From NCBI GenBank assembly GCA_009801085.1, contig VNWV01000007.1, positions 868,001 to 932,000 on the forward strand: a stretch of 64,000 nucleotides of DNA, given 5' to 3'. The notes under the pieces are model-generated. The model was not told where the DNA came from, did not search any database, and saw nothing but the letters and a program-made list of their open reading frames with translations. Source of the stretch: Lasiodiplodia sp. COLG20 (Eukaryota > Ascomycota > Dothideomycetes > Botryosphaeriales > Botryosphaeriaceae). Position numbers and translations under genes: made by a program. Below, one piece after another: positions 11,385-61,497 of the stretch; the stretch's first letter is position 1; every line of letters starts with the position of its first letter.

Positions 11385-13077
11385 TTAATGGTTGAGGCGA
11401 ATGTGAGGGATGATGCGAGTTTGAGACGGGCAACAGCCCGGGAGCGGGGAGCAGCTGAGACTCTAGTCACTGAGGATTGGAATTCAACTTGCTTGAGGCC
11501 TCAGAAGACAGCGGCTGCCAGCAGGCGAATAAATAGTCGCGACACAAGACCACCACCAGCATGCAGCGGTGAAGACATCGTGAGGCGCAGTGGCGCAACC
11601 GTGAAGCCGCGGCAGCTAACGTCGGCCTTGCCAGTACGGAAATGAGGAGAAGGGCATTCCCGTGACGGGTAAATCACGCTGCCGATCTGGACGAGTCGCG
11701 GTGGTGGGCAGGAGGTACAGCGGCCAGGCGAATGGGAGCAGCGAAGACATCTGCCTCATGGCTCTGGCAGGCGGGCGTTGCTCCGCCAAAAACCACGCAC
11801 CGCTTGTAGCCGAATGGGGTGAAGCTTGGCCGGCTGATCTATGCGAAATACCTCGTTGCGTCAATAGTATTAAGGTTTCTGGGGAGCCCGGGGATGACGC
11901 TGCAGGCCCACTCAGGCCCTGCCGACCCATCGTTTGACCAAGGCCGGTAGACAGAGCCTCAGGAGGAGCCACCAGCCCCGTGAATAATGCCGCGCACAGC
12001 CCAGGCCTGCAGCGCGATTTGAGCGCTCGGGCGATCGGCTCGCTCTGGGTGGCGGCAACGAGGCAATGATGATGGAGGGCGAGGGCCGAGGCCATTGGCA
12101 CGCCTCACTGCTCACCGACCAACAACTCGCCCCCTCCGCTGTACTTGACCGGCATGTAGCACCTGTTGTCGCGGCCAGCCCTACTGTTTCTGCGGGTCGT
12201 CAGCCCGCCGTGCTGCGCGATCGCGCATCGGCGATGGGCGCCGTATCCAAGTCAACGGGTTTCTTTTCCATCCTTCGCGCGCCGCTTGCCTGCGGCTGAA
12301 GACACTGCGACGCAAGATGAAGCTCGAGACGCGACGTCTCTTTGCCGCCGGCTACGACGGATGGCAGCCCATTGCAGGGCTGTTCCCGTCCTGCAGCTGC
12401 AGCACCACCCACTTGCTGACGCGCTGCAGGCGCCTCGAAGCATTGCGTCGCCAGGCAACGAGTCGACTCCTCTCGACACCACGCCTAGCCTGCCGGCGCG
12501 CTGGGTGGTGGCAAGGTCAGCGTCCTGCTTCGGGCAAGTCGAAGCCGTGGCTGCCACTAGCCGGTACACAACACCAAAGTAGCTTATCCTGAGCCATTAT
12601 TCCCCCAAAAGTCCGACGCCCCTCCCGCTCCGGTCCTGAACCGGCCCAACAACTGAGCGAACACATATATCGCGCACCACACGCTCCCCTCGAGCGGCAC
12701 TGCCACCTTCTGATCGCTCCCGACGATCCCACTCCCGCACGGAACCCTTTGATTCTCCACCCGGCCACCCCCGGAGTACCCAGCTGATCCTGGCCGCCGG
12801 CCAAAAGGGACTGCTCGAGACTTGCGACCGTTCAACTAGTCTCTGGACCTCGCGTCACTGCCGCTTTCCTGCTTGCCCCCTGCTCCGCCCGCCGTCTCAC
12901 CATCTCCTGGCTGTCACGGTATCGATAAAACCCCGCCGCAGCACGCGTCTACCTACTGCCTGCTCATATCCTTCCGACCTGCTTAATACCGCGCTGCCAT
13001 CTCGCTTCTCCACCCTCCACTCGATCATCTTCCTAATCACACCACCTCTACCCTAATACCACCACCGCTCAATCAAC
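11385..13077. other. gene-poor region with pyrimidine-rich leader at its right end
   Basis: No supported gene between 11.4 and 12.6 kb. From about 12.6 kb the plus strand becomes strongly C/T-rich, typical of a fungal promoter and 5' UTR, leading into the short gene that follows. Confidence 0.45.
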
Positions 13078-39500: not shown

Positions 39501-39727
39501 CCGACCGAGCGGCCTCCCCATCACGCCGCCTACTGCCAGCCATAGAAGAGCACTGTAACAAGGTCGCTCTCCACTGGTCGCTCGCCCGTGTCCATACAAT
39601 TCAGCCCTCCCCAAGCCCGTGGACCGCTGGGAACAGCAAGAGGCAAGACCACCCTCGAGCACGAGAATCCTTCCACCTGCCACACCTGTCCCGAACCCCC
39701 GTGCTTTGCGCAACACTGCCTTCGCCA
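33543..39727. other. 6.2 kb gene-free region upstream of areA
   Basis: Largest gene-free stretch in the window. Many frames stay open on both strands from about 34.9 kb on because the DNA is GC-rich, but none has a recognisable domain, sensible composition or splice-completed structure. GATA/TATC cores are frequent between 33.7 and 34.7 kb (for example GATAAGA near 34236). The last 300 bp are C/T-rich leader. It probably contains distal areA regulatory DNA and a long 5' leader; a non-coding transcript is possible. Confidence 0.45.
34684..34697. promoter_or_regulatory. perfect 14-bp palindrome of two inverted GATA sites
   Basis: AGATAACGTTATCT is its own reverse complement and contains two inverted AGATAA cores four bases apart, a geometry suited to paired GATA-factor binding. 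It lies 5 kb upstream of the areA start, so the target gene is uncertain. Confidence 0.4.
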
Positions 39728-42641
39728 ATGTCGGACGCGCAACATGGGGAGCGTGGGGGAGGCATGCACGCCTCTCCCCTCTCTGCCGACTTCGACAACG
39801 ACGCTATTGGAGCGATGGCGGATCTACACTCCTTCCACACATCATCTTCGCCGCGGCACGTTCGCTTTCCCCAAGGCCACCGCGACGACGTCTCCGGCAC
39901 CTCCAGCGCCGTGCAGTCCCTCACCTCGGCCAGCACGCTGGACAGCTCCAAGCTGGATCTCTCACCCTCCGACTCGGCCGCCCGCGAGGGCGTGCTTCGG
40001 GACACCTTTTTCCCGCGCCTCAAGAATGACGCCGTTCCCAACCTGGACGACCCCGAGGAAATGCAGAAGAAGGACCCCATCGGTACCCAAATATGGAAGC
40101 TTTACAACAAGCAAAAATCCCAGCTGCCCAATTCTGAGCGCATGGAGAACCTGACCTGGCGGATGATGTCGATGAACCTGCGGAAAATGCGTAGGCAGAG
40201 TGCACAGTCAGTTTTAAGATTTTGCGACATTCTGCGTGTCTGGGATGGTGTTGACAAAGCATGCCACTAGGTTATCTCACAAACCGACCAACGACGATAA
40301 GAGAGCAGGCTCGAGACCCACAACCGCGCCCAGCGGCATCGCCCAGCTACGAAGCTTGTCTCGGGACAAGCAGGCCCAGCTAGACCTCGAGGCCAGCAAG
40401 CCCGAGCCCATGAACCTCGACGATTTCATCGTGCCCTCTTCAGTCGCCTCTCCAGCGGGCGTGCCACACTCGCCCTCGGCCTCGGACGATCAGCCGTCGT
40501 CGACGAATGCTACCGCTCCCGCCATTCCGATAAGGAAACAGAGCCAACTGAACGACCAGACCCTTCATATTTCGCGCGCCTCTGCTCCCTCCGTGCAGCC
40601 GGTTGTGTCGAGAGAGAATGAATTCGGTTATGTGCAAAGGCACGTACGCAAGACGAGCATCGACGAGCGAAGAGTAAGTTCCCTTTCCGGCGAATTGTTA
40701 TCAGGAAATACCCATGTTAATCCTTATCAGCCTCCCAAGAGGAAGCCGGACGCGTCCCCGCAGGTACCCGCTGTGAGCAGCATTATGATACCCCACGACC
40801 CCGAGGACCAGGGCTTCCACGACTACTCTCTGGACCAACCTCACCCTCCTCAGTTCCAGCAGCACTCCAACTCCAACCAGATTCCTTTCAACCTCCACAC
40901 CTTCGATATCGACAACGATCCCATCATCAACTCCGCCGGCCCCTTCCAGAACCAGTTCACCTTCTCTCCCATCGGATCGCCCATGGCTACCAACCAGGGG
41001 AACAACTACTCCAACATGTTCAACAACGCCCATTCGATGGCGTCGTCTCTCAACTCGACAGATTTCTACAACTCACCTCCAGGTTCCGCTTACCCCTCGA
41101 CCGTCTCGACGCCCCAGCCGATCCCCGAAGGCGAGCAAATCTTCTTCGGGGATCGCAGCGGCATGGACATCAGAGGACGCATGGGCAGCTTCAACCCGCC
41201 TCACAACAACATGTCCAGCTCGATGCAGCCGTTCATGTTCAATCCTACTGCGAGCGACTCGCTGTTCAACAACGTTTCGGCGGCGGGACCACCTCCGCCT
41301 TTCTCGGCGCACTCTTACCATCAAAACAGCCATGTGGATCCCAATCAGATAGTTCATCCCAGCTTCTCGCATCCCACGCGCTCCCCCAGCATGGACTTGT
41401 CGAGGCATGACAACATCTTTCAATTCGGAGCCGACTCGGACGACAATGAGGAAGAGGGCGGCGCGTTCGCCGACCGCACGATGCCTATGCAGTCGCAGTA
41501 TTCTCCAATGGACGACTCCTCGTTGGACTTCAACGGGACGTTCCAGTGGGACACCAACAACCTCTCTAACCAGTTCAATCCGACTGCCGCGCGTTTTCCC
41601 GCAGGACCTCCACGCAAGACGGTCACGATCGGGCCAACCGAGATGGTTCCCTCACCGCAAGATTGGAGTACTGGCGGCAGCCTCGGGCGTACACACGGTT
41701 CTGCGGCTTCTGTCAGCGAGATCCGGAATCGTGGAAACGATCCGCGCCGTCAGAAGATACCCCGCACCAGCTCCACGCCGAATGCAGCTGGACTAGCCCA
41801 TCAAGCGATGCAGCAGCGGCCGCAATCCTCCCCTAACTCGCCCCCAGAATCGGGTTTCAGTTCGGCTGCGCCATCTCGACCGGCGAGCCCTGGTGGCAGC
41901 AAATCAGGCGACCAGAGCGGCGCGCCAACCACATGCACCAACTGCTTCACGCAGACCACACCCTTGTGGAGGCGCAACCCAGAGGGTCATCCGCTTTGCA
42001 ATGCATGCGGTTTGTTCTTGAAGTTGCACGGTGTGGTGCGCCCGCTGTCGCTCAAGACGGATGTCATCAAGAAACGCAACCGTGGCAGTGGCAACAGCGT
42101 GCCCGTGGGCGCTTCGAGCAGGTCGAAGAATAAGACGTCGCGCAAGAACTCGATCGCCGCACAGTCTACTGCGACTACGCCCAACTCAACCAAGGCCAGC
42201 GGTGCTGAGTCCGAATCCCCGAAGTCGATGGCGGGTTCGGCGTCCAATACGGCCGCCAACACTGCTAGCAACGTCAGCGCTACTGCTTCTAAAAATGGCG
42301 TCGTTCCAATTGCACCCGGTCCCCCCAAAACGCAGTCGCAGACCTTGGCTGCTTCTGCTCCGGCACGGAACGCTGCCGTTGCTCCCAAGCGGTTGCGGAG
42401 TGCGAAGCCTGGCAACCAGGATACTGAAATGGGTGACGCAGACGACACGACTGGCAAATCTGCTCCCTCTGTCAGCAGCAGCAGCAGTCAGAGAAAGAAC
42501 GAGCCGAAGCCACTCGTCCAGGCCCCGCCATCCATGGCTACCCAGCACAACCCCATCCAGATGGGGTCCATGGGACAAGGCGCAATCCCCGGGTCCGGAA
42601 GCGGACCGCAGGAGTGGGAATGGCTGACAATGAGCTTGTAG
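39728..42641 (+). CDS. areA: GATA transcription factor, global nitrogen regulator AreA/Nit2
   Basis: Three exons: 39728-40206, 40271-40673, 40731-42641, 930 aa. The 64-nt first intron (GTCAGT...CTAG) joins RRQSAQ to LSHKP; the 57-nt second (GTAAGT...TATCAG) is in frame and its removal joins TSIDERR to PPKRK as expected for AreA. The N-terminal fungal DUF1752 segment ([20 protein letters not shown], then [13 protein letters not shown]) is at about 117-148. The single GATA finger is C696-x2-C699-x17-C717-x2-C720 with [18 protein letters not shown]. The C-terminus ends EWEWLTMSL, the conserved tail known in Aspergillus and Neurospora to contact the NmrA/Nmr co-repressor. AreA activates genes for secondary nitrogen sources when ammonium and glutamine are low. 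Acidic and Ser/Asn/Pro-rich regions between carry activation functions. Confidence 0.96.
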
Positions 42642-42962
42642 ACTGCCGGTTGTCTCATCCAACCCTCAGCAGCGTTACATCTGTGTCCACCACCTTGTCT
42701 CTCCACGCGTCGAGTTCGACGCATTCTCCGTAAGCGTTATTTTCGTCGAGTCTGACCGGCGTTGTTGTTTCCACCTGAACCAAGATGATACCTCGGGCGG
42801 GAGTCGTTGGAAGAGGGACCATCGCACTTCCGCCCTCGCTTTTTTGATGATGGCGTGTTTGCACACTTCGAAGAGACATTGTTACATGGCTCTTTGTAGA
42901 GTTCTTTTCGTTATCCGATCCGTCATGTCTGAAGTCCGACGAGCACTACCACGTTCTTTCGG

Positions 42963-42996
42963 GCCTGTGTGGAGGAGGCAGGCGCTCTGCACCGGC
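42963..42996 (+). promoter_or_regulatory. areA 3' hairpin 1 (shared-loop element)
   Basis: Arms GCCtGTG (42963-42969) and CACcGGC (42990-42996) pair with one T/C mismatch around a 20-nt loop starting TGGAGGAGGCAGGCGCT. 322 nt after the areA stop. Confidence 0.55.
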
Positions 42997-43095
42997 AAGC
43001 GGGCCGTCAGCTCGTGGCGCAACACTCGATGTGGTGCGGCACGCAGCGACGTTTTTTTGCGGACCATAATCCCGGTTCGTCTAATACCTAGATTG

Positions 43096-43126
43096 ACAGC
43101 GGTGGAGGAGGCAGGCGCTCCGCCGT
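43096..43126 (+). promoter_or_regulatory. areA 3' hairpin 2 (shared-loop element)
   Basis: Arms ACaGCGG and CCGCcGT pair with one A/C mismatch around a 17-nt loop TGGAGGAGGCAGGCGCT, identical to the first 17 nt of loop 1. The stem sequence is unrelated to hairpins 1 and 3. Confidence 0.6.
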
Positions 43127-43223
43127 GAATGTGGATAAAAAGACGAGAGAAGAGATTGACGATGAGATGGCGACTCGGAACACACAGTACGAGGGAACCA
43201 TCCAAACGGGGCCAACCTACGTG

Positions 43224-43257
43224 GGTGATGCAGTGGAGGCAGGCGCTCTGCATCACC
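43224..43257 (+). promoter_or_regulatory. areA 3' hairpin 3 (shared-loop element)
   Basis: Perfect 10-bp stem GGTGATGCAG / CTGCATCACC around a 14-nt loop TGGAGGCAGGCGCT, the same as loop 2 minus one AGG unit. Strongest of the three. Confidence 0.7.
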
Positions 43258-46200
43258 TTTGGTGCCCGTACCTAATACCTTTCTTGGTGGATGTTGCTTT
43301 TTTGCTTTCCTGTTGCTCTGCTCTTTCCCCCTTGTTTTTTTGGCCACGAAGTTTACGATGTGATTCCCTTGTTCAGCTCGATTGTTCAGCCGTCGTCGTT
43401 CTCGTCATACGGGAATGGTGACGGTCGTTTTGGTTCGCGCAGCACTCTCGCGTTGTGTTTGCGCTTCAGCTCGGATAACGGGTTTTCGGCCGCTTTTTGC
43501 TGTTGTATCGCGTATAGACTGGGGCGGTGTTTTGTAGGACGCTTCGCAGATGGGTTTCGAGGATGGTTGTCGATGTTGTCGTCGTTGTAGTTTTCGCAGG
43601 CTGATCCACTTCCGGACGGCGAGATTTGACGCAAATCGAGAGATTGATATCCATGAGGTGTTTGAGTGCTTGCGCGTGAAGTGTCTTTTTTCTCCTCTCA
43701 GAGGCCTCCTCTTGACAACACCATGAACAAACAGATGAGAAATGGGGAGCGTAGGTGATGGAGCAGACGTGAGGGAACAGCAACATGCGGTGCGCTGTCC
43801 TCATCCTGACGAAAGGCTTGTTCACATGCCTCCTTCCTGCCAGCAAGATTCATGACTCGAATGAGACCAATCATTCTGGATGGGAGAGGAAGTGGTCCAT
43901 CTCGAGGCTCCGGGCGGGTGCCTGCGTGTTCCCATCCCGTTTTTTACTTTTCTTATCGCGCGGTTGCACCGAGGAAGAGACCAGCATCAGCGATTGGGCG
44001 GTGGGTGAGCACACGACGAAACCGGAGGTCATCCCGTGCAGGTGCACGCGCGATCCTATCCGAGGGAGATAAAGAACCTCTCGCTTTTCCAGGCAACCAG
44101 TGCTAGGTTTGGGCCGGTGGGGTTGGGTGTGGGTGTAGTGCGTGATATTCATTCGGTTGGTTCCTTTTCGGTATGGGGCAAACGCAGTCAGTCAGTGAAC
44201 CCATCCATCGGAGATCTCTGATGACGATGACGACGATGGTGGTAATCGTGCCGTTGTCTCGCCCGGCGTTCGATGTGTCTGCGTTGCGGTTTCCATTATC
44301 TTATCGCCTCTTGAATGATGTACCACTTTTTCGATTTTGTCTTTTTCGCGATGCAAGCCATGGATGGCGCCAAATGTCGTCACCCCCGGTACCTCCTCTT
44401 TTCCTTTTCCGGGTTTGTATGTTTGTATCCGTAGCTCTTTCTATTCCCTCTCGAACGGCAACGAGGACGCAGTGTGGATTCCAGTCCGAGAACGGTGGTA
44501 GCGAAACGTCGAGGCGATTCAAATGCGACGGTCCCAGGGGGTCGAAGAAGAAAGGGTGCAGATTCCCTCCAGTAGGTGGAAATGACAGGTGAGAGGGGAA
44601 GAGGGTCCATGCGGCTCTTAAGAAGACTTTTTTGCTCCTGAGGGACAACAGGGTTGCTAAGAAAATATAAGCTAAGAAAGACGTGATCCCCACCTGACGT
44701 TGGGCCTTGGGGTGGTCAGGGCTTGGTTTAAGTGTTAGTAGGTCTTTTCCGTGGAAGAAAAAGAGAGGAGCGGACGCGCGAGGACGAGGCCGGGGCTCTC
44801 TTTTCTTCAATCGGCTTCGATGCCGACGGTGCAGGAGGCTGGTGGGCGTGTGTGGCCGTGCCAGCAGAGTGCTCAGATCGCAGGGCATTTCTCTTGCTAA
44901 CAGCAATGCCCTTTTGGGCCGGGCGGGTGGTGCGCCTTGGCAAATGGCGAGCGCGAGATAGGATGACGCCAATAAGGGCCGCTGCAGCCCACCCCGAGGG
45001 GCCCCTACTTGGCTCTTCCCCGGTGGAACAGGGGACGGGGCCCGCGTGTAGCCGTCGTGGTGTTGACGGCGGGCGATTTTTTTCCTCCGGCGGCGGCGCG
45101 CCTGCGCTTTTGTGCGCTCTGGCAGCCAATGCTTCCTTCCTTCCTTCTTCTTGCGTGCTCACCGGGCGCGATAAGCCCGCCGCGCCGCGCTGGAATCTTT
45201 TCCTCCTCCAGGCCTTGCCAATCACTCCACTGCGTGCTCGTCGGCCGTGTCCCACACCGGTGAGCACTTTTCTGGGCGCGCGCACGCGCACGCGCTGGTG
45301 GCCCCGGCCCGCGGGGATCGATCGTTCGACGCGCCGCCCGGAACAGGAAAAAAACTCGACTCGCTCACCAGCGGGCGCGCCGGAAGCCGGAGATCCGGAG
45401 AAGAGCGTCGCGGTTGGCGGCGGATGGAGATGATGGATTGATTATGGAGACTGCAACAGGGGAGAGCATTGCTGGTGGGAATTGCATGGACGTAATGCGG
45501 ATGCCGAGCTGATGGGTTATTAGGTAAGTGTGGCGGATGTCATTCCTCTAGAGGCGACTGCGCGCCGCCCGTGAGAGATTTTTGGTTTTCATTATTATTT
45601 CGGCAGGCCGGTGCGATCAGACTATGGTCTTGGCGCGCGACATCGTGAAACGGGTGGTGTTGACGGCAGTGGTGGTGGTGGTTTCGAGGCGGCTGCGCTG
45701 AGAGCAGTCTTGAGCACATTTGAGAACAAATGGCCAACCACCACGGTATCATAGGCAGGCCTGCTGCCAAGACGCGCTGATATAAAGGATTCCGTGGTCG
45801 CCGTCGACGTTGACCTCGCTTGGACCTTCGGCTGCGTATCTTTGACCAAGCTTACACCTTCGACCGCCTGTCAGTCGATACCCACCCACACCTGCCTCTG
45901 GGGGAAGGCCGCCTCCGGAAAGCGGCAACAAGAGCTGGGGAAGCGGCTTCGGGGCCTCAACGCCTGGCATGACTTCAACGTGATGGCTGCGCCACAGGAC
46001 GCCCCCATTTGATGGCCAACTCCCAACACATCGCCCGTCAAGCCGCCCCGTCAAGCCTGCTGTCAACAATCGATGTCAAACCAATCGCTCTGTCCGGCAC
46101 ACATTTGCGACTCGGTCGCCTGGAGCTTTCCAGCGCCCAGGCCAGAAATAGCCCATCAGCTATCAGCCACGGCCGAAGTCTAACCCCGCCTCCGCATTCC

Positions 46201-47138
46201 TCCCTCGCCAGCGCTTGCTCGCGACCGGCTAGCCTATGAAAGCTCGACTCATCAGTGAGATGTGCCTGTTTTGTCCGCCTCAGGCCTCAACTGCAAATAC
46301 AATACCTGATCGGGATGTCGTGTTCCAGATGTGCGTCAGATTTGTAACGCTTCTCCGACGCTTCCGATGGCGTCTCGGAACCGTGGATCTCGCAGCGGCA
46401 CGTCCAGACGGATCTCGAGCCGACCCCATTTCCCAGGTGCACGCCGTCCTTAAGCTTTCCTCTGACACCTGGCGCCCGTGAGCTTGGCCTCGGCTTGTCC
46501 GCTTTCAGCCATAACTCCCCGCGCTATTCTTGGAGCCCAGGCCTTTGCACAGCCAGTTCCCTCCGCATGACCCCTTGCGGCGCTTGCTCCTACACCAGAA
46601 GTGCCTCAAGATCTCCTCTTTCAGGCAGATTCCACGTCTCGTACACGCTCGCCTCAGCTCTCAGCGCCAACGCCATGCAGGGACGACTTGCTCGGCTGTC
46701 GATCAGGGCCCTTCAGAGATCCAGTTAGATTCGAGATGCCGCCTGGCGGTGGCTGAGGGTAAGGTTTTGGGTAAGCATTGGGCCATGACGCCGCGCTGGA
46801 CGCTCGATAGCTGCCCGCACTTGGAACGGTAAGCGTGCGAGCATTCTTTAGCCGTGGCGCTACACACAGCCCCTTCGCTGCCGTGCTTTCCGCCTCGTGT
46901 ACCCGACCTGTGGTAGCCCAGGCACGAGTAGGAAACCCAGTAAACGAAGGTTTGCGGAAAGCATAAAACCCGCGACTCGTCCGCTGCTTGGAATGTTTTT
47001 CTCCAGCATCAAATCAACTCTTCCTCATCATCAAAGATACCCATTTCCTCCTTCTGTTCAAAGAAAGGACTGTTTGATACAGTTTCCGCATAGCCCATCC
47101 TCTAATACTAAAGAAAAACACCAACACCAACCACCAAC
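43258..47138. other. 3.9 kb gene-poor region
   Basis: No supported gene. T-rich at 43.3-44.6 kb, GC-rich at 44.7-45.4 kb, and C/T-rich just before the cupredoxin gene. A short minus-strand frame (43634-43386) and a longer plus-strand frame (44732-45433) exist but lack coding character. Confidence 0.45.
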
Positions 47139-47822
47139 ATGCATTTCTCCACCTACACCCTGCTGGCCCCCACGGTCCTCATCTCCCTCTCTCAGGCCAA
47201 GAACATCGACATCATCGTCGGCAAGAGCGGCCTTACCTTCGAGCCCAACTCCACCACGGCGGACGAGGGTGACACTCTGACCTTCAAGTTCTGGCCCAAG
47301 GCGCACTCGGTCGTTCAGGGTGGCTTCGACTCGCCGTGCACTCCCATCGACACTGGCTTCAACTCCGACTTCGTCCCAGTCGAGTCGGGAGCCGCCAACC
47401 GCACCTTCGTCGTGACCGTCAACAACACCAACCCCATCTGGTACTACTGCTCCCAGGGCAAGCACTGCCAGAACGGCATGGTGGGCGTCATCAACCCTCC
47501 GTAAGTCGAATCACCCCCCTTTCACAACAAAAACTAAACGGCTAACAACCTTCACAGTTCGAACAACCGGTCCAGGACCCTCGCTGCCTACTCTTCCGCC
47601 GCCGCCGACGTCTCCGAGGCCGAGACGCCCAGCAACATCCGCGGTGGTGTCTTCGAGTCTTCTTCCTCGTCGTCATCGTCCAGCGGCTCCTCAAGCTCTA
47701 CTCCTTCCGGCTCTGCCGCCACCCCCGCCTCGTCGACCGGCGCCGGTGTCTCCCTCGTGGGCCAGGGCGCTGCTGGTGTTGCTGGTCTCGTCGCCGTCGT
47801 CGCTGGTCTGTGGGGCTTGTAA
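47139..47822 (+). CDS. GPI-anchored Ser-rich cupredoxin (blue-copper) protein
   Basis: Two exons: 47139-47500 and 47558-47822, 208 aa. A signal peptide (about 1-20) leads into a plastocyanin-like domain of about 100 residues. All four type 1 copper ligands are visible: H56 (KAHSVVQ), C104 (YYCSQG), H109 and M114, in the C-x4-H-x4-M spacing typical of blue-copper sites. A Ser-rich linker (about 150-185) and a C-terminal hydrophobic Ala/Val/Leu segment (AAGVAGLVAVVAGLWGL) indicate GPI anchoring. Many filamentous fungi carry several such extracellular serine-rich proteins; roles proposed include electron transfer, copper handling and surface development, none established for this one. Intron ends are GTAAGT and CACAG with branch CTAAC. 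Confidence 0.9.
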
Positions 47823-48213
47823 AAGTTTTGTAAAGAGACCGAATGTTTTGTACGGTTTTGTACACGGTGGGAGTCAGAAGTGCACGATGGTGGAAGCAGG
47901 GAAACCCGGCGTCTTGATGGCGCTCTGATCGGCGTTACACTTTTTCATCTTCTTTTTTGGGGAGTTTTTCTTGCTTTACCAGCCTGATGGATGGGGTTGC
48001 ATGGTATGGGAGCAGAAGACACATTTCAATAAGGAAACCAGAGCCACGAATTGATGCATACTCGTTGCTACACATTTGAATTCCTTGATGCGTGTTGCGA
48101 TTGCTATTTGATTACTAAATCATAGGTTCTAGACGGCTTTCTTGAGCCTGGTCTCTTGCCTAAGTATGTTTTCTTTTTTGTGTCAAGGAAATGCTGCCAT
48201 AAGTCTTGCATTT

Positions 48214-48345
48214 CTTACATGACGAGGCAAAAGGGAGGAATTCGAGCTACGAGCTTGCCCATTCTGATATCTGATAGTGTTGGTGTGTTTTGTCAAGTTA
48301 ATCTTTCAAGCAAGGGAGAGCGGAATGTTGAAGATGCTGAGCTGT
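48214..48345. repeat. diverged direct repeat, copy A
   Basis: Starts CTTACATGACGAGGCA and matches copy B at 25 of the first 29 bases, with weaker similarity continuing for about 130 bases (TGCCCAT, GTGTTTTGTCAAGTT, GCAAGGGAGAG). Confidence 0.5.
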
Positions 48346-48572
48346 CCGGAGTCTTGAATCCTTTTATACATACATTATCACACCGCCTAAGAACCGGGTG
48401 TGTGGGTCAAGATCTGGATCCTTTTCAAGGTGGATATTGCCACCGACGAACAAAGAGGGTGGAACAAAGACGAATCGACAAGACAGCGGCTAATAGTTAT
48501 TGAAGATGAAATGGGCTCCGGTCTTCTCCTTGTGCCTCTGGCAAATAGTGTTCTATATTAACCCTGCCTTCG

Positions 48573-48710
48573 CTTACATAACGAGGCAGGAGGTAGGAAT
48601 TATTCCGAGCTTCGGAATGCTAGTGATGCCCATCTAGATGTATGTAATGAAGTTTGTGCGTATGTGTTTGTTCAACTTGAAAATTTTATGCACAAGAGAG
48701 GAGAAACATG
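48573..48710. repeat. diverged direct repeat, copy B
   Basis: Starts CTTACATAACGAGGCA, 359 bases after copy A, followed by AGGAATT and a CGAGCTTCG block equivalent to copy A. Most differences in the best-matching part are transitions. Confidence 0.5.
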
Positions 48711-51001
48711 GAGCTTCCAGGTGATCGAGATCCTAAGTACTTTAAATTCAATACTCAAAGAGGACCCTTGGCACTACGTGCGTAAGTGTGCCTTTCTTAC
48801 ATGTTGAATGGTCAAAGAACCCAGACAAGAGTGTGGTTCCCAATCTTATCGCTGAGAAATATTTAGTGCGTGCGCAACAAAGGTGGTCCGGTGAGACAAT
48901 GGATAATTGTGAATGAATTCACAATGACTTTGTGTATATTCTTTCTGGCTCGATTAGAAATTGCTACTCAGTCAGTGGGATGATGTTGAGCTTAGCATTT
49001 AAGCAAACTTTCGGATAATTAGGGTTGCATTCAGGCGAAAGAATAAGGTGCGCTCGGAACAAGGATATTAAAATGCCTGACCCTGCACAAAGAGTGCCGA
49101 AATAGATGGCTCGGCGCTTCGTCGTTGATATAGTGACCTTGTCTAAGATTTATATATTGCACATCGTGTCCGGAGATGATCAAGATCTCCAGAATCAGCA
49201 GTATACATTTACCAACTTCAAGGTAAGGAAGCTTGAACAAACGGAACATCCGTCAAAACCCTTCTCAGCATACCAAAGTATCACCATGGCCACCCCTCAG
49301 AGCTACAAGGAGCACTCCTGGAACGTTTGCATCGTCCAGTAGAGCGGTCTCAATCATGAGTCTGGCTGTAAATCGATTGAGTCATATCTTCTACTTCATT
49401 CTTGCGCCTGCAATCAAGTGACGTGCCGCACCTGGACGCATGACCTCAGTGCTTGGTTACACGGAAGGGTGACATGGTAATTTCCGTAAACTTTTAAATT
49501 TTCTTAATCGCTTTCCGATGACGTCTGAGTCGGAAACTATATCTCAGCGCTGATAGAGATCAGACCACGCTCAGGGCTTCGGTTTGAAACATGTACACAG
49601 ATCCGTGATAGTGTGTCGAGGCAGATACGTACTAGCAACAGTGGCGCCAATCCCGACCATCCGCCCACCCCCGTCAAAAAAGAAATAAGCAAAAAGTTGT
49701 TTATGCGTCCGTGTAATTTGGAAGTCACCCGGTCACATGTGGTGTTCTCGACTTGCTTTTCTTTCTCTGTTTTCTCCTCTACGGTTCCTCCTTCCCTCTT
49801 TCCTCTCGTGTTTGATTGGTCGCGACATGTTCAGTGGGAATGTCGACATCCCGGGTGGTTGGCCCCCGGGAAGGAGACGCGGCACCGGGACCGTGGCACG
49901 TCGGGAGTTTTCCTATTTTTACCCTATGAACGCGGGAATAGCTGTATGATGATGGGAAGGGAAAGAAAAAGAGTGTCTTATGACCGTCCGGATTTTCTGT
50001 GTCACTGGCGGGTCATCCCTTTCTTTCGTCCCACTGCCCCGGGGCTTCAACCGTTCGAGAAAATCGCGCGGATGCCGAGGTCGTTTCTATCACTTTTTAC
50101 CTCCCACGTGGAGGTGTGAAGGCGGAGGAGCGAAGATGGTGTGGATGATAGATAACGGAATGTGCCGATACAAAAAGCAAGGCTTCGGGTAAAGGAAAAG
50201 GAAAATTAGTACGGGAACGCTTGGGTTCGGTGAGGGGGAAGTGAGCCGTGAGTGGAAGGATTCAACGGCGGGCGGGGGCCAGGGCAAGGCTCCGTTCGTC
50301 AACGAACCCCACCTGACTGTAGACAGGATTGGACCAATCACTGGAAGGACACTCGCAGAAACCAGAGAAGGGCGGATTTGGGGGAAAAGCAAAATGACAC
50401 TTGATTGCACCGGCTTACCAATGCTAAGGACTACGGATCTCGTTCGGTTGTGATGATCCAACGCATAAGGAGACGCGGAATATTGCAGATCGCCAAGAGT
50501 AAAGGAAAATGGGGTATATCCCTACATCGGGGCAAGACAAGATGCTGAGCCGAGAAAAAAAAGTTTAAAAAAGCAAGAACACCATGAGAACGCCTTACGC
50601 TCGCTCCTTGCTGAACTGCACAAAGCCGTCTTTCCGAGCCGGAAAAGGAAACATGGAATAGTAAACAAACCCGGTGCCAAGTCGATTTTGTGCCGCGAGG
50701 CATCCAATCTCTTCTGAAAATGGGCGAAATGAAAACGATACCTCGTAAATAGTCTTAAATTCTGCATAGCCGACAATGTCGAAGAAGGTGGTGGATTGGG
50801 TATACGCCGGCGTGTCCGTGTCTCATTGGTAGGTTTTGACGGCGGTCCGCAATTGTTGGGACGCCGTGACAGGGTAATGTTGGGGTTGCATTGGAATATG
50901 TCCGAGGGTGGCATTGCGGCGAATTCAAACAGGACGTCGACAAAGAGTCGTGGGGAATGGCAAGAAGCATGGGCATCGGAGGTGTTGTGGTGTGGCGGGT
51001 C

Positions 51002-51498
51002 TTAGCGGCCGACGCGGCGGTCGAGGTGTTCAACACGGCGACGGTAGGCCTTGACTATCTCCCCAATGCGGCGGATCTTGTCGAACTCGACCTGGAGCTC
51101 GTCGATCTGGCGCAGGATCTCGTGGAAGCGGGCGATTTGGGCGTCGGCGTCAGAGATGAGGTTGCCGGCGCGGTCGTACTGCATGGCAGTGGCAGACTGG
51201 GTCTGTTCGGAGAGCTGGATGGGTCAGACAAAGGCGGAGCGGATCGGGGACTCGCGGAACTCACATGGGACCAGCGCGCCTGAATGCTATGCAGCAGACG
51301 GTCAAAGTGGGAGCTCAATGCCTGCAGGCTGGACGGATCGAGCAGCAGACGGCCTTGAGATGAGGCCTGGCTGGCGGCGCGCGACGAAGAGCCGCCATGC
51401 TGGGAGAGGGCGACCTGCTGGTGATAACGGAGCGTCTGGATTTCGCCCTGGGTCAGGCCGAGCTGGCTGTCCGGAATGGAGGCGGCTGGGGAGGCCAT
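51002..51498 (-). CDS. small coiled-coil protein resembling BLOC-1 subunit 2
   Basis: Two exons: 51498-51265 and 51214-51002 (50-nt intron, GTGAGT...ATCCAG), 148 aa. The N-terminal third is Ser/Gln-rich. From about residue 58 the protein is a continuous amphipathic helix: LQALSSHFDRLLHSIQARWS, then QTQSATAMQYDRAGNLISDA and later DELQVEFDKIRRIGEIVKAY, ending RRRVEHLDRRVG. This spacing of two helices, with QIDELQ near the turn, resembles BLOC1S2-type proteins that assemble into endosomal/lysosomal adaptor complexes (BLOC-1 and BORC). I make the assignment on pattern only; another small coiled-coil complex subunit such as a Kxd1-like protein is possible. Confidence 0.55.
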
Positions 51499-52392
51499 TG
51501 TGCGGAGGCACGCTCGGCGACGGCATTGTCAAGCTCTCACTGCCCGCCGCGTGCCATGGACGCGGGGAGGTGGGAGCGGGAAGGTGGGCGGGTTTGGGCG
51601 CGACGGAGGGGCTCAGGTAAGGTAGTAATAAGGCAGTAAGGTGGTTTGGGAGGGGCCCGGCAAGCGGCCCAGGCGTGAGTTCGATTTGACGCTGCACGAC
51701 CAACGAGCGCGCATGCAGCCCTATGTTCCCGCAGCCGGAACGGCAGCAGCGCGACAGCAGCGCGACTACCAAAAAACACTCCCTGCGCATCGCGCTGGAA
51801 CCGCCTTTTGCCATGCTCGCAGCCACCCACCGTCCGGGCGGCGCTTTAACTACCTTCCTCGATATGCCGCACGCCCGGGCGTCAACGGCTCTGCCTGCGA
51901 CCTGGCCACTCACGCCACGTCCTCGCACACCACCTTGCTCTGCGGCGCGACTCCAACACCCTCATCCTGGGGTACTTGCGCCGGAAGATCGTCCGCATCG
52001 GCACTGCGCGCGGGTAAAGATGGGCCTAAGGACGCAGGTCCTGCCCGCCGCATGTCGCCAGACGTCAACGCCGCCGACCGCGAGCACATGACGCCTCTGA
52101 CCTCAGGCGCCCGATTCTCTGGCCCGCGGATGCTGCCTCTTTCAGCCTGAATCCGACGACGTGCTCCACCTCGCATGCCAAACACCCTCCGGAGCACCCT
52201 GCCCCGAGCACGAGCCCACCCGCTTTACTACTTTGCTCGCGGAGCCTCCTCTGCCATATACGCTGTCAATCTGTTTGAATCATTGCGGATATTGATGCCG
52301 CCATGTATAGGCCTATTTAACAAAGACTCTCCCCCCGTACCTGTGTTTCGAGTGTCAATGGTTGCAACAATAGTGTTTTGGCTTTCGTCACC
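51499..52392. other. divergent promoter region
   Basis: 0.9 kb between the divergent starts of the BLOC-1-like and esterase genes, GC-rich in the middle and AT-richer in the last 150 bp before the esterase ATG. No gene supported. Confidence 0.5.
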
Positions 52393-54113
52393 ATGCACGT
52401 TTCAAGCCTCTTTTCTATCGTGTCTCTGGCTTGCATCGCCTGTGCAACTATCCTGCAGAATGGCCAGGTCCGTGACGTGAACTTTCCCGACACAAAAATC
52501 ACTCTCGACGACTCTAGCAATTCGACCTGGACCACCTACCCGCCCAATGCCACCGAAATCGGCTACAAGGGTCGCTGGGACAGCAAGCATATATCTTGTA
52601 AGTCGAACGCTTGATCACTGAGAGCGGGGCTGACAGTTCCAGGGTGGTCGTAAGTCTCCATGAAAGCTTGAATTGCTGCTCAAACCAATCACCTTGCCCA
52701 GAGCTCCCGGTCTCAAATTTGGCTTCACTGGCGAACGCCTTGCCATTACCTTCGGACAATACACCTCCCCAGGTGTCCTCATCGGCTACCGTCTCGACGG
52801 CCAGGACTGGGTGCAGCTCTTTCATTCTCTATTCACTTTCTGCCTCTTCCACCAGCCACAATAATGGCACCGCATGGCCGCTAACCCACCCTCTGCTAGC
52901 AATTCACCAACGTAACCGCTGATTCCACCCACCTCCTCATCACCTCCAGCACTACCGGCTTCAACCTCACCAGCTCCACCACCCGCACCTTCGAGCTCCG
53001 CGTCACCAACTGGTCCCTGGGCGTGCAGATCGCCGCCGTCCACGTCTCCCGCGCCGGCGGCTCCCTCATCCGCCTCCCGCTGGCGCCCCGCACCCTCGAA
53101 ATCATCGGCGACTCGCTCTCAGCCGGCCAGTACGCCACGTACGAAGGGCTGGCCTCGTACGCCTGGGACCTGGCGGCCGGCCTGGGCGAGACCGAGTTCA
53201 GCATCACGGCGTACCCGGGCATCTGCCTGGTCGACGCCGAGTGCTGGGGCAACGCCCGCGGCCAGGTGCGCCAGTGGCGCTACGCCTCGGACACGTCGTG
53301 GCGCGCCACCGAGCTGTACGGCGCCGACCACGCCGCCGCCGAAGCCTGGGACTTTGCGGCCCACCCGGCCGCCGACGTCGTCGTCGTCAACCTCGGCACC
53401 AACGACAACAACACGGCCAACAACGTCAGCGCCGCCGCCTACCTCGACGCCTACGTCCAGCTGGTCGATGACATCCATGAGACGTGGCCCGACGCTCAGA
53501 TCGTCCTCGTCAGCTTGTGGAACGGCTTCTACCAGCTCGGCTCGTCGTGGGCGCAGGGCGGCGCCTTTGTCGACGAGATTCAGGAGGTGGCCAGGCGCTA
53601 CGAGGGCCAGGGCTTCGTGCATTATTTCAATACTACGGGCATTATGCAGCACAATGATATTGTAAGTGTGCACTCCGCTGAGCTGTTCCTTGGCATTGGG
53701 TAGATGGGGGAAATATTGGTCGGTGAAAAGGGGAAAAGGGGGGAGCAGACGGGATGAAAGGGAGGGAACGATAGAGACAGCCGGATGATTGGTTTCAAAA
53801 AGGTTTGGAGGAAAGGAAGGAAAAGAGGAGAAAAGAAAAGAAAGGAAAATAAACGGAAAAAAGAAACAAACGGAAACGCGGGTGTCGTATGCGAGGAACA
53901 TGCACTTTGCGAGAGAGAAAAAGAAGAGATTGCTGACCATGACTTGCCTGAATTCTCTAGGGACCGCAATGGCATCCTACCGACGTCGGCGCCCTCAAGC
54001 TCGCGAGCCACCTGATGCAGTTCATCAAGATCAAGTTCGACTGGGATCTGCTGGCAACCGGCCCCGAAGTCCAGCACGAGACACTGTACTGGAATGACCA
54101 GGCAAACTACTAA
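52393..54113 (+). CDS. secreted GDSL/SGNH esterase, carbohydrate esterase family 2 type
   Basis: Five exons: 52393-52597, 52643-52649 (7 nt), 52702-52810, 52900-53661, 53961-54113, 411 aa. A signal peptide (about 1-18) is followed by an N-terminal beta-sandwich-like domain containing GRWDSKHISWWSAPGLKFGF and TFELRVTNWSLGVQI, then the SGNH domain: nucleophile Ser179 in IIGDSLSAGQ, GTNDNN block, and catalytic His366 in QWHPTDVGALKLA. The jelly-roll plus SGNH layout is that of CE2 acetyl esterases, which deacetylate xylan and glucomannan oligosaccharides outside the cell. The 7-nt exon supplies most of the two Trp codons of SWWS. The third intron has an unusual GTGCAG donor; the fourth is 299 nt and purine-rich. 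Confidence 0.85.
52643..52649 (+). other. 7-nt micro-exon of the CE2 esterase
   Basis: GGTGGTC lies between an AG acceptor (TTCCAG, with CTGAC branch 11-12 nt upstream) and a GTAAGT donor; flanking introns are 45 and 52 nt. It restores SWWSAPG. Using the earlier CTGACAG acceptor would give a 13-nt exon reading SFPGWSAPG, also in frame, but the branch site then overlaps the acceptor. Confidence 0.75.
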
Positions 54114-55053: not shown

Positions 55054-58000
55054 TCAGACGCGAATGACAATGCGTACGCCGAGGGCCCGCGCCTCTCTCA
55101 CGCAGCAGGCCAGACAAGTCCGGCCCACACGTCCGACGAGTGCGTGCTCGCCGCGGTCCGCACACCACGCACGAGCCAGCAGCGCTGCGTCAGCCCCACC
55201 TGAGAGAGTGGCCGTGCAATCAGTTGGAGGCTTGAGAGCCGGTCCCGAATCAGCCGAATTACGCGGTGGGCGTGCATCGATCACGAGGACCTCGCCGCTA
55301 GCCGCTGTTTCGTCCAAAAGGGAAATCGTCGATGATGCGGGCGTGAGATGCGGTGAGCCTGCAAGAAGTTGCACCGGTGTGATTACGCGGTACTTATGCG
55401 CGACGTGCAGCGGGTGAGCGGAAACTGGCCCGCTTCTGCCACCGGTGGAGTTCCTGTTCAGGCGGCGCAGCTTCTTGTTCGTAGCGGAAGATGGCGGTGT
55501 GCACGGCCAGGCAGTGATAAACTGAATATCGTAAGTCAACGAGAGTGTGACGCTCGTTTCCAACAGATCGAAGGTCATTTGAGCTGCGTAGCTGGGCTGC
55601 GGCTCGACCTCCCCCGCCAACACCGGGCCTGGGATTTCCACCACGGGTTCCGGAAGTAGCTGCAGGCTGTTGAAACGGACTAGCCTTGCCGGCGGTTCGA
55701 TCGAATCTCTGGGCAGAGTAAGGTCTTCTCCAGTCACCTCGCTATCCGCCTTCCCCGCCAAGTAGCTCGCGTCGAGCTCAATCTTCTCTGCGCAGTCGAT
55801 CCTTGCCCTTGACTTTTTACCTGGGCTTGGCGGTGTGGTACCGTTGACGATATCGATCCATGAATCTTGGAAGCCGATCGGAACGTAAGGTGTGCTGATC
55901 CAGCCCATGCACTCTTTCGAGCCATCCATGGTTGCGAGAACCCTGCCAACGATACAACTCTTGCTCCACCAGCTGCGATCAGCGTAGATGAATCCACCAT
56001 ACAGATTAGCCAACTCTCCGAGCGCAGTCACAGCCGACCTGTCATTTTCCAGCAAAGTCGAGATAAGAAAATGCGAGATGGCTTCGCCGGGAAGGACCAG
56101 GCCAGTCAGGTAAGTCCGGCTTAGCCAGCCGCCAATATCAGTGGGTCCATTGCTCGAGCTCGAGGTGGGCTGTGAGCTATCCCTCCTGAGCAGCGAAGGT
56201 CGTGGAGGCGTGGCAGGCGTGGAGGTAACCGACGGGTGCAACTGGATGGATCGTGAGGTACTCACGCGGCTCGGGCGTGGGCGATGGAATTCTTGGTCAA
56301 AGTATCCGTTAAGGTCCTTTGGTATACGTGGAGTCGCAAGAGGCGAAGCAAGCGGCGTAGCGTAAATACTCGGCGATGGGGGTGTCCCGTTGTCCTGAAG
56401 TTTAGCTGTCAAATTGATCGAAAGTTCCCTGAGTCTAGGCCACCCGATAGTTTCGGCAAAATGAAGGAGTCCGGAAAGTTGGCGCTCTCGGTAGCGGGGC
56501 CGTAGCCAGAACTCAGTTTCCTGCGGTTCTTCAGTCTCCTCGGTAGAGCGCCCAACGTTAAGGGCGGCAAGAAACCCTCTTCTCTTCGGGGTAAGAGGGG
56601 CCGGTGTCTCCTCGCTGATTTCGATATTCTCCAAGAACCGTCTGGCCAGCACCAAGTCCCAGTCAATCTTGCGCGACTTCATGCTCGTGAAGCTGCGGAC
56701 TTCAGCTTCAGTCAAATTCAGCTGTTCCGTAACTTCCTTCACAGGGAGCCCCGAGACCGCATCCAAGCGAAGGAGGAGCTCCGAAGCCAGCAGAATCTGG
56801 AGGAGGAGCATGTCCCTTTCGCTTGGCCCGGCGTATTCCTCCGAGTCGTCAGGATCCGAAGAGGGGCTGTCCCATAAGATCCGGCCAAAACGTATCCGCC
56901 ATTCCACGAGACTGAAGTCGTTCCAAATTCCTTTCAACCTGAGAACCCGGATCAAAGTCTCGATCTGCACCTTCAGCCCAGTGGGGTCTCCTGTCGATCC
57001 ATCGTAACGAGGTGGCATCAGAAATTTACCGAAAAGGTGGGCGTACATCTCTCCAGGGGATTGCGAGTGCAGAATGGTGGTCTTGCCGGCGGTCTCCTTA
57101 AACGTCTGGTGGACTTGGCTGAGCTCCATAAGCCGTTCGTAGATCAAGCGTTGGTCAAGCCATTTGATTCCCAACTTTTCCGGCGCTTCCTCCAACAGAT
57201 CCCGATTCGCGATGGCTTCATCGTCGTTGTCCTCTAGGCGGAGGTGGTCGGATCTCGGAATCTCCAGAAAATGGTCAAAGCCAACGGTCCCAGCGTCCAG
57301 TCCCTGCGCGCTCAACATGCTCGGAATTTCCACCACGTTGATGTCGTAACCCATGGGCAGCCCCTTCTTCTCATCCTGGTGTCCAACCTGGCAAAGATGA
57401 GGCCGGAGAGTGGCAGAGGAAAAGGCTTCGTGGGACAGTTGTGGACTGTCGCTGACATCTCGAACAATGAGGGTGTCGTCGTAAGGAAAGTCAACTCTCG
57501 GGATGCGCCTGCCTTTGATCTTGTCTACAGAAAAAAGAGGGGCGCCAGCGAACAGGTTGGGGATATCGTCTTCAGTCAAGCCTGCGAGATGCATAGTGTT
57601 AGCGACTGCAGCCCCTGGCAAACTTCGGCTTAAGGGTCAGTTCCCCTGAGGATCCGACTACACAGCCATGGCGGTGAAAAGGGCAGATCACGATCACGCA
57701 CCACTCGGATCGGGAGTCGAAACATCGTCGGGAGCCTCTGATCTGGCGTCCTCGGTCTCCTCTGGCTGGGCTGGTTGGGCGGCCGGGAGGTCGGCGGTGG
57801 AGGAGGCGGCGGCGGTCGTGGACTTGTCGTCGTCGGCGGTCTTCACAAAGGACGAGCGCGAGCGGTAGTGCTTCTTCAGGCCTCTGAACGGCTCAACAAT
57901 ACGGCTCTTGCGCTGCAGAGCCAGAGTCATGTTAGCGGTGCGGGCAGCGGATAGGGGGCGGCTGCGTACCTCGGGCTCGACGATACTCGGGATGCTGGCA

Positions 58001-59310: not shown

Positions 59311-61497
59311 ATGGCATCTGAAATGTTTGACTACGTGGTGTGCGGGTAAGTCTCTCCCCGGACTGCGCAGTGGTCTATCCTCACGCTTGACCCACAGTGG
59401 CGGTACATCTGGCTGCGTCATTGCGGGCCGCTTGGCAGAAGACCTCAACGTCTCTGTCTGCGTGGTCGAGGCAGGTCCTGACAACGCAGATCTGGACAAC
59501 GTTCACATGGTCGGCGGATGGTCACAGAACTTTGACGGACCAACGGACTGGAACATCGTCTCCGAGCCATCACCTGGCCTCAATGGACGGCAGATCAAGA
59601 ACAGCAGAGGCAGGTTTCTGGGCGGATGTAGCGGTGTCAATGGCACTCTTTGCATCCGAGGTAACAAGCAGGACTACGATGATTGGGGTCTGGAAGGCTG
59701 GTCTGGCGAAGACATGTGGAAGTGCATGGCCAAGGTAAGTGTGATGTCCCGCATTACTACCCCGCACCTTGACCCTTGCGCTTTCTCTCCGGTGGTGTGG
59801 GTGATTTTGAGGCTAGCGTGATTGCCAAGGGCCTACATATAGGCGCCTAAGGCATCACATTTGGCGTGATTGGGCACCAAAAGTGTGATTGAAGCTTTGA
59901 CTGTCGGTAAACGCTCACTTACATGGCTCACGGTTGCAACGATTATATCGGGCTTATGTCTCAGAATGTAGTACTAATTCATGCAATTGCAGGCGGAGAC
60001 ATTCCATCCCAAGGATGGCTTTGAGGCAGATTTGAGCGTCCATGGAACAGATGGGCCTCTGCACACGGAGCCTCATGACCTTGCTCCGATCTCTAAGCTT
60101 CTCTTGGATTCGTTCAACGACCAAGGAGTTCCTTATACCCCAGATCTGTTCTCTACAGGTGCCTCTCCCCAGGGATGCAGCAACACAGTCCGTACAGTCC
60201 ACCAGGGTATTCGGACGACCGGAGCAGACTTCATCACGAGGGGCTACAGGCGGGAAAACATCACCATCAAGACCGAGAGCGTGGTTGACAAAGTCATTCT
60301 CGAGCCGGTAGATGGGAAGCTTACAGCCACTGGCGTCAAGATTGTGACGAAGGGCGGTGTGGAAACAACTGTCCAAGCGCGTAAAGAGATAATCTTGAGC
60401 TCGGGAGCTTATTGCAGTCCGGCCATCCTCCTACGTTCGGGAATTGGCCCACAGTCCGAACTTTCCAAGCATGGCATCCCGACTCAGGTTGAACTGCCGG
60501 GGGTGGGCAAGAACCTCATGGATCACGCTATTACCTTTGTCTTCTATGAGACCAATAAGCCCGAACTCACCAACGACCATCTGGCCTACTACGAAGGCGC
60601 CCTTGCCTCCAGCTACCAGCTGTACAAGGACACCAAAAGCGGCTTCCTCTCCACATTTCCCTTCGGCGCTTTCGGCTACGGCAGGCTCGACGACCGCTTC
60701 AAGGACCTCCCCGAGTGGAAGCAAGCCACCCCGCCGAAGGATCCACACGGTCAACCCTACGGGCCGGACCGCGACCCGATGGGCCTTCTGCGCTCGCAGC
60801 CGAATGTCGAATGGTTCAGCACAGAGTGCTACGGTGGGCCAAAGCAGTACACTGACTTCCCCGGCGACGGTCAGGGCGTTTTCTCCATGATTAGCATGCT
60901 GATGTCGCCGCACTCGCGCGGCTCCGTCACCTTGGCCAGCACAGACCCTACCGCCAACCCTGTCGTTGACCACAACTACTTCGCCGACCCACTGGATGTG
61001 CTTGTCATGGCCGAGGCGTGCCGCTGGGGCAATGAGATTGTGACTAAGGGGGCGGGCACTAAGGACTATATCAAGGGCTCGTGGCCACCTACCGAGAGGC
61101 ACCATGAATACACGACGCTGGAGGAGTGGGCCGATTTTGCGCGAAAAAATGCGACGACATGTAAGTGGTCCTTATTCGGCAGAACCAAGGCCAAAGAAAC
61201 ATGGTGGATTGCTGACCGAGGCTTAGGCTACCATGCTGCGGGAACATGCAAAATGGGAAGAGATGATGACCCGGTGGCTGTGTTGGACGCCCGACTTCGC
61301 GTGAGGGGCGTAAACGGGCTGAGAGTCGCAGACTGCAGCGTCATGCCGCTCATGAATCAGGGACATAGTAAGTTGGGATATCCGTAGAAGTATAAGCCGT
61401 TACTAACGTTGTGATAGCTCAAATGCCTGCGTACGGTATCGGCGAGAAGGCCGCAATTCTTATCAAGGAAGACGTGAAGCAACATCCTGATGCGTAG
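59311..61497 (+). CDS. GMC-family FAD oxidoreductase (alcohol/choline/glucose dehydrogenase type)
   Basis: Five exons: 59311-59345, 59398-59734, 59993-61160, 61227-61367, 61418-61497, 586 aa. FAD-binding VCGGGTSGCVIAGRL is split by the first intron near residue 12. The GMC signatures SRGRFLGGCSGVNGTLCIRG and SSGAYCSPAILLRSGIGP are present. Active-site His516 (YHAAGTCKMG) and His560 (NQGHTQMPAYGIGEKA) match the His pair of glucose oxidase and aryl-alcohol oxidase. The 66-nt third intron is a multiple of three and could be wrongly read through; removal restores ATTCYHAAGTC. There is no signal peptide, so the enzyme is intracellular and its substrate is undetermined. Such genes often belong to catabolism or secondary metabolism, but no biosynthetic neighbours are seen here. 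Confidence 0.9.
59818..59858 (+). other. 41-nt imperfect hairpin inside GMC intron 2
   Basis: Outer arms GTGATtGCC and GGCATCAC pair with one bulge; the inner GCCTA-cata-TAGGC pairs perfectly, with an additional AGG/CCT helix between. GTGATTG also recurs twice downstream in the same 258-nt intron. Confidence 0.5.

Follow-up and report, generated by a model that had tools for sequence, protein, structure and literature searches.

Three hairpins with one loop on variable stems downstream of areA, a candidate RNA element in Lasiodiplodia sp. COLG20

In nitrogen signalling, the regulated deadenylation of the areA mRNA serves as a standard example. A deadenylation element reportedly lies in the areA 3' UTR of Aspergillus nidulans, a result said to go back to Platt in 1996 and Morozov in 2000; to our knowledge, neither the RNA motif nor the reader protein behind this process has been defined. 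According to a passage of PMC9460803, the areA message of A. nidulans needs a 218-nt region of its 3' UTR for its faster deadenylation and decay when ammonium or glutamine is sufficient, and a passage of PMC8683493 describes areA transcripts as unstable on a preferred nitrogen source, via deadenylation and CU modification. Downstream of areA in Lasiodiplodia sp. COLG20 a short motif is found three times within 300 nt, each time in the loop of a potential hairpin. This raises the question whether the three copies are an RNA element, and whether such an element could act on the areA mRNA. We conclude that the hairpins are a real and unusual local feature and probably a new RNA element, and that they probably form a repeated docking site which helps to control the areA mRNA, of which they would be part.

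The analysis covered a window of 64 kb, that is, the whole stretch of DNA presented here, from a genome assembly of 43.5 Mb in 88 contigs. The main exon open reading frame of areA occupies positions 40236 to 42641 of the plus strand. It contains a Pfam GATA zinc finger (E 1.4e-16) and ends on EWLTMSL, with the stop codon at 42639-42641. This frame is identical at 768 of 801 positions to the 'Zinc finger GATA-type protein [Lasiodiplodia theobromae]' (P0001), and 20 of the 33 differences are gap positions, which marks the source as L. theobromae or a species very close to it. An upstream areA frame on the same strand (39701 to 40267) carries the GATA_AreA domain (PF08550, E 7.9e-14). The areA homologues of several fungi (P0003, P0046, P0054, P0057, P0061, P0078) are labelled 'Sodium- and chloride-dependent GABA transporter 1', a name that is apparently a copied annotation error. 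Further along the window there is an 855-aa open frame without Pfam or NCBIfam match on the minus strand (55054-57621) and a plus-strand open frame that contains the two GMC oxidoreductase domains (59981-61387).

The 14-mer GGAGGCAGGCGCTC starts at 42974, 43107 and 43235, and all three copies are in sense to areA. The preliminary description had placed the hairpins 322, 455 and 583 nt past the areA stop, which ends at 42641, and locating them anew gave the same positions. Together they span 322 to 616 nt 3' of the stop on the areA strand, with spacings of 133 and 128 nt (261 nt in all). The putative 3' UTR, placed after the stop, would thus extend at least over plus-strand positions 42642 to 43257, where the third hairpin ends. 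Across the whole genome, in which some stretches read N, the exact 14-mer was found three times on the forward strand and never on the reverse strand, and all three places are those downstream of areA. About 0.9 places are expected from base composition, and the same 14-mer written backwards, used as a control, gave 0 forward matches and 1 reverse match. The motif supplies the only 12-mers of the window with three or more occurrences inside 600 nt, counting copies spaced by 20 nt or more. The sequence CTAATACC lies just before hairpin 2 (43081-43088) and just after hairpin 3 (43272-43279). It has one further copy in the window, at 13053, and none on the minus strand; the pair near the hairpins may be due to chance.

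For the structural comparison the copies were cut as pieces of 34 nt (42963-42996, 43096-43129 and 43224-43257), which align without gaps. RNAalifold places this three-copy alignment in one common hairpin, in which a stem of 12 pairs closes a 10-nt loop, GAGGCAGGCG, that is identical in all three. Copy 1 on the plus strand (42963 to 42996, loop at 42975-42984) forms 11 of the 12 pairs. Copy 2, also plus (43096 to 43129, loop at 43108-43117), forms nine, the outer three being open, and copy 3, likewise plus (43224 to 43257, loop at 43236-43245), again forms 11, with a U-U at pair 11. The inner three pairs read GAG/CUC, except that in copy 3 the middle one is the U-U. One of the outer nine is invariant; each of the others has different letters in different copies or is unpaired in one copy. 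A single loop on varying stems had already been seen in the preliminary description and is retained here, but the stem register given there was wrong according to RNAalifold. The differing loop lengths given there (20, 17 and 14 nt) and the AGG named as an optional part of the motif both arose because stem registers had been mixed; its copy-2 stem lies off the shared register, and the optional AGG vanishes in the gap-free alignment.

Folded in the sense direction, the three 34-mers form 11, 9 and 11 pairs with minimum free energies (MFE) of -15.0, -15.6 and -18.1 kcal/mol. The shared fold is the MFE structure of copies 1 and 2, while for copy 3 the best RNAfold structure differs at the apex, on the same outer stem, from the shared form (-16.6 kcal/mol). 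The antisense strand gives 9, 8 and 11 pairs at -9.5, -9.3 and -15.7 kcal/mol, so that the sense fold is the better one in three of three copies. The sense orientation had been noted before and is confirmed; together with the better sense fold it fits an RNA on the areA strand.

These strand data bear on the idea that the hairpins lie outside the areA mRNA and belong to an unannotated non-coding RNA, to a reading frame or, at the DNA level, to a neighbouring promoter. Six-frame unspliced translation of 43401-53396 contains no Pfam domain, which leaves about 10 kb of room for an unannotated transcript, or equally for a long 3' UTR. A minus-strand frame of 124 aa (42882-43256) crosses all three copies, stopping short of the last outer-arm base of copy 3; it reads QSACL twice, from copies 3 and 1. 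Against a location outside the areA mRNA stand the common orientation of the copies, the weaker antisense fold and the combination of a constant loop with varying arms, which would be unexpected if a dimer recognised a site in duplex DNA. Rfam gave no match at gathering score in the whole window, and a relaxed search of 42600-43800 gave one match at E 2.6, which is on the minus strand and off the hairpins. The minus-strand frame has no relative at E up to 10, and we regard a place outside the areA mRNA as quite improbable. A coding repeat is unlikely as well. The same minus-strand frame does span the three copies, but copy 2 is in a different frame from copies 1 and 3, and on the plus strand every frame has a stop between copies 1 and 3. 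Protein searches with the translated 3' UTR frames, aimed at spurious gene calls in related genomes, gave 13 candidates in one case, of which none passed E 10, and 0 candidates in another.

The 16-nt core is 94-100% identical between copies, whereas the 40-nt flanks are 17-35% identical, as random pairs are, even when shifts are allowed. A simple tandem repeat is therefore not supported, in line with the earlier statement. Old duplications retained only in the core and in the pairing, or separate origins of the copies, would indicate selection. If the short core alone had been copied recently, pairing would be the sole argument for function. In a neutral history of this kind, a GC-rich piece of some 16-22 nt would have multiplied by local copying that was perhaps recent and left the flanks behind; the stems would then be due to chance or to template-switch replication. 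Three copies inside 300 nt suit such an origin, short-core copying would also yield unlike flanks, and GC-rich sequence readily pairs.

The stems were compared with chance. In a joint test the 30-nt flanks were dinucleotide-shuffled, and the score was that of the best stem for which all copies use a single register. The observed score is 19.5, compared with 6.6 +/- 1.6 in shuffled sequence, and 0 of 4,000 shuffles reach it. Random triples drawn from the window do not reach it either (0 of 20,000). The letters in columns 7, 27 and 28 beside the core are common to the copies, so that the copies are not fully independent in this test. When the register is left free for each copy, the total is reached by 16 of 4,000 shuffles, which favours the neutral history. 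Non-cognate arms pair more weakly at the shared register, which speaks against it; with a free register, the 3' arms of copies 1 and 3 suit the 5' arm of copy 2 as well as its own does. Taken singly, the stems are reached by shuffles in fractions of 0.15 (copy 1), 0.03 (copy 2) and 0.004 (copy 3). Copies 2 and 3 thus carry the case, and copy 1 alone is unremarkable, as a neutral history would have it. The fold z-scores in a context of 44-51 nt are -0.58, -2.04 and -2.22 in the same order.

Pairing is also preserved where the letters change. In the alignment of three sequences 31 of 36 pair cells are kept, a paired fraction that 0 of 500 shuffles reach. Five of the 12 stem pairs have changed on both sides (among three copies of one genome), which 6 of 500 shuffles match, and the covariation score of the three sequences is reached by 2 of 500. 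Pairing falls to 31-56% (at most 55.6%) when the partner is shifted by 1 to 3 columns. Places that share the core by chance offer a further comparison. Among 118 listed matches of the same 16-mer in bacterial and archaeal contigs, a stem score of at least 5 occurs once at the shared register and 17 times at any register. For the loop decamer in the fungal genome itself, the first 100 of 257 listed places, none of them at areA, have run scores of at most 7, compared with 9, 9 and 10 for the areA copies; as many pairs as copy 2 has, 9 of the 12, are found in 3 of these 100 examined places of the 257. The double changes, the joint test and the rarity of shared-register stems at bacterial and archaeal core places all argue against the neutral history, which we consider improbable. 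The preliminary view of a constant loop on compensating stems is supported within this one genome, by the joint test, the double-changed pairs and the better fold of the sense strand.

Predicted in local context, the shared helix has a mean pair probability of 0.08-0.12 in copy 1, while copy 2 reaches 0.71 and copy 3 reaches 0.76-0.81. The low value of copy 1 is a point against the proposed element. A competing hairpin, GGCCUGU with GCGGGCC, is favoured in local folding of copy 1 (window positions 42962-43005). This competing fold could be a two-state switch, or it could be an argument against copy 1.

The genome was also searched for near-matches. Allowing up to 2 mismatches in the 16-mer gave 60/55 places, against 68/52 for the backwards control. 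These 115 places include 112 outside areA; 90 of 100 listed places were examined, 87 of them outside areA. None of these 87 examined places, of the 112, has a shared-register stem score of at least 5, the best being 4.5, while at another register 16 of the 87 reach at least 5 and five reach at least 7. One such near-match, at L131 (G000:C2:8510 region) and close to a contig end, sits within a different hairpin off the shared register; it scores 7.5 at any register and 21.3 bits with the covariance model. This model, R1, was built from the nine outer pairs of the three copies. It gives the areA copies 45.0-48.9 bits, by construction, and the runner-up in the window 16.4 bits, and among 57 near-match loci the best has 22.3 bits (E 0.0058), with two more at 21-22 bits. 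A genome-wide family is rejected within the places examined.

A search of the genome with the 701-nt region returned no second locus at E up to 10. A dispersed or mobile hairpin repeat is rejected, with the exact 14-mer at areA only, the near-match count close to the control and no second 701-nt region. Searches of viral contigs yielded neither an areA relative nor a paired motif. A description of the motif was not found in the open-licence literature, where queries for 'areA' also match 'area', and passages of PMC5348485 and PMC4246892 add nothing on it. A two-layer RNA G-quadruplex was also considered and rejected: it needs four close GG runs per copy, and copies 1 and 2 have GGAGGAGGCAGG where copy 3 has only GGAGGCAGG. 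Loop-loop kissing through GCGC and pairing with another RNA are further conceivable readings.

Which protein might read such a loop? A constant loop on a stem that merely has to pair, three times in one 3' region, is the usual layout of a protein-binding hairpin. Vts1/Smaug would be the obvious candidate, because the loop contains CNGG and the genome encodes a Vts1-type SAM domain. The latter is a SAM_2 match at G000:C45:48529-48684 whose best matches are yeast Vts1 chains (E 3e-20). The exon that encodes it (L006) has the LGARRK stretch of yeast Vts1. In such a scheme the copies would be Smaug/Vts1 recognition elements, with the loop CAGG read by the fungal Vts1 and Ccr4-Not recruited, and yeast Vts1 triggers decay through Ccr4-Pop2-Not according to a passage of PMC3468468. 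As in Smaug elements, a conserved loop that includes CNGG is displayed on a non-specific stem. In the rule given in a passage of PMC4053848, however, CNGG stands at the 5' end of a hairpin loop of 4-8 nt, whereas here CAGG is internal to a loop of 10 nt. From 170-nt windows folded at 37 C we drew 800 structures, a smaller sample than in PMC4053848, and a loop that follows the rule has a probability of 0-0.003 in copy 1, 0.013-0.014 in copy 2 and 0.020-0.021 in copy 3. Relative to the best fold, a CAGG tetraloop on the outer stem costs 3.6-7.2 kcal/mol. With a CNGG-first loop at a probability of at most 0.021 in the predicted folds, we rejected the Smaug recognition element, and a role of Vts1 at these hairpins is very unlikely.

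We consider it likely that the hairpins are an RNA element kept by selection. Granted this, it is still rather likely that the element acts on areA mRNA turnover. The complete proposal is that three copies of a protein-binding RNA element lie in the areA 3' UTR and, by analogy with A. nidulans, act on areA mRNA turnover; we put it at slightly less than an even chance. In this proposal the three hairpins would be copies of one RNA element in the putative areA 3' UTR, each displaying the same loop on a stem that is free in sequence provided that pairing holds. One RNA-binding protein would read the loop together with the top of the stem, which is nearly constant as GAG/CUC, and three sites would increase its occupancy. 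The bound protein may then alter the recruitment of a deadenylase to the areA mRNA, as the A. nidulans case suggests, and turnover of the message might become faster or slower with nitrogen supply. The likeness to the A. nidulans 218-nt element is one of position, in the same gene and downstream of its stop, and of proposed outcome. In their working the hairpins resemble the iron-responsive element and the constitutive decay element, which also combine a constant loop with a variable stem and sometimes occur in several copies per UTR; their loops and sizes differ from those seen here.

The same RNA element could have another task at the areA mRNA, namely 3' end formation, localisation or translation instead of nitrogen-regulated decay. 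The evidence for an RNA element says nothing on which step is controlled, and there are U-rich runs between and after the copies. The control described for the A. nidulans areA 3' UTR in the passages of PMC9460803 and PMC8683493 is, however, one of deadenylation and stability, and such another task seems unlikely to us, though less so than a neutral history.

A loop-specific hairpin of a new family, used in three copies by a single gene of this genome, may be the cis element that sets the lifetime of the areA mRNA by nitrogen status in the Botryosphaeriaceae, with a reader protein new to nitrogen control; we offer this only tentatively. The genome places examined offered no further target for such a protein, which counts against the proposal. 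A compact, repeated and well-delimited hairpin is a bait for the reader protein and a clear mutational target. AreA reportedly interacts with Lws1, which negatively regulates disease development in L. theobromae (PMC9460803). If the proposal is true, the hairpins would constitute an RNA control point on a regulator linked to Lws1.
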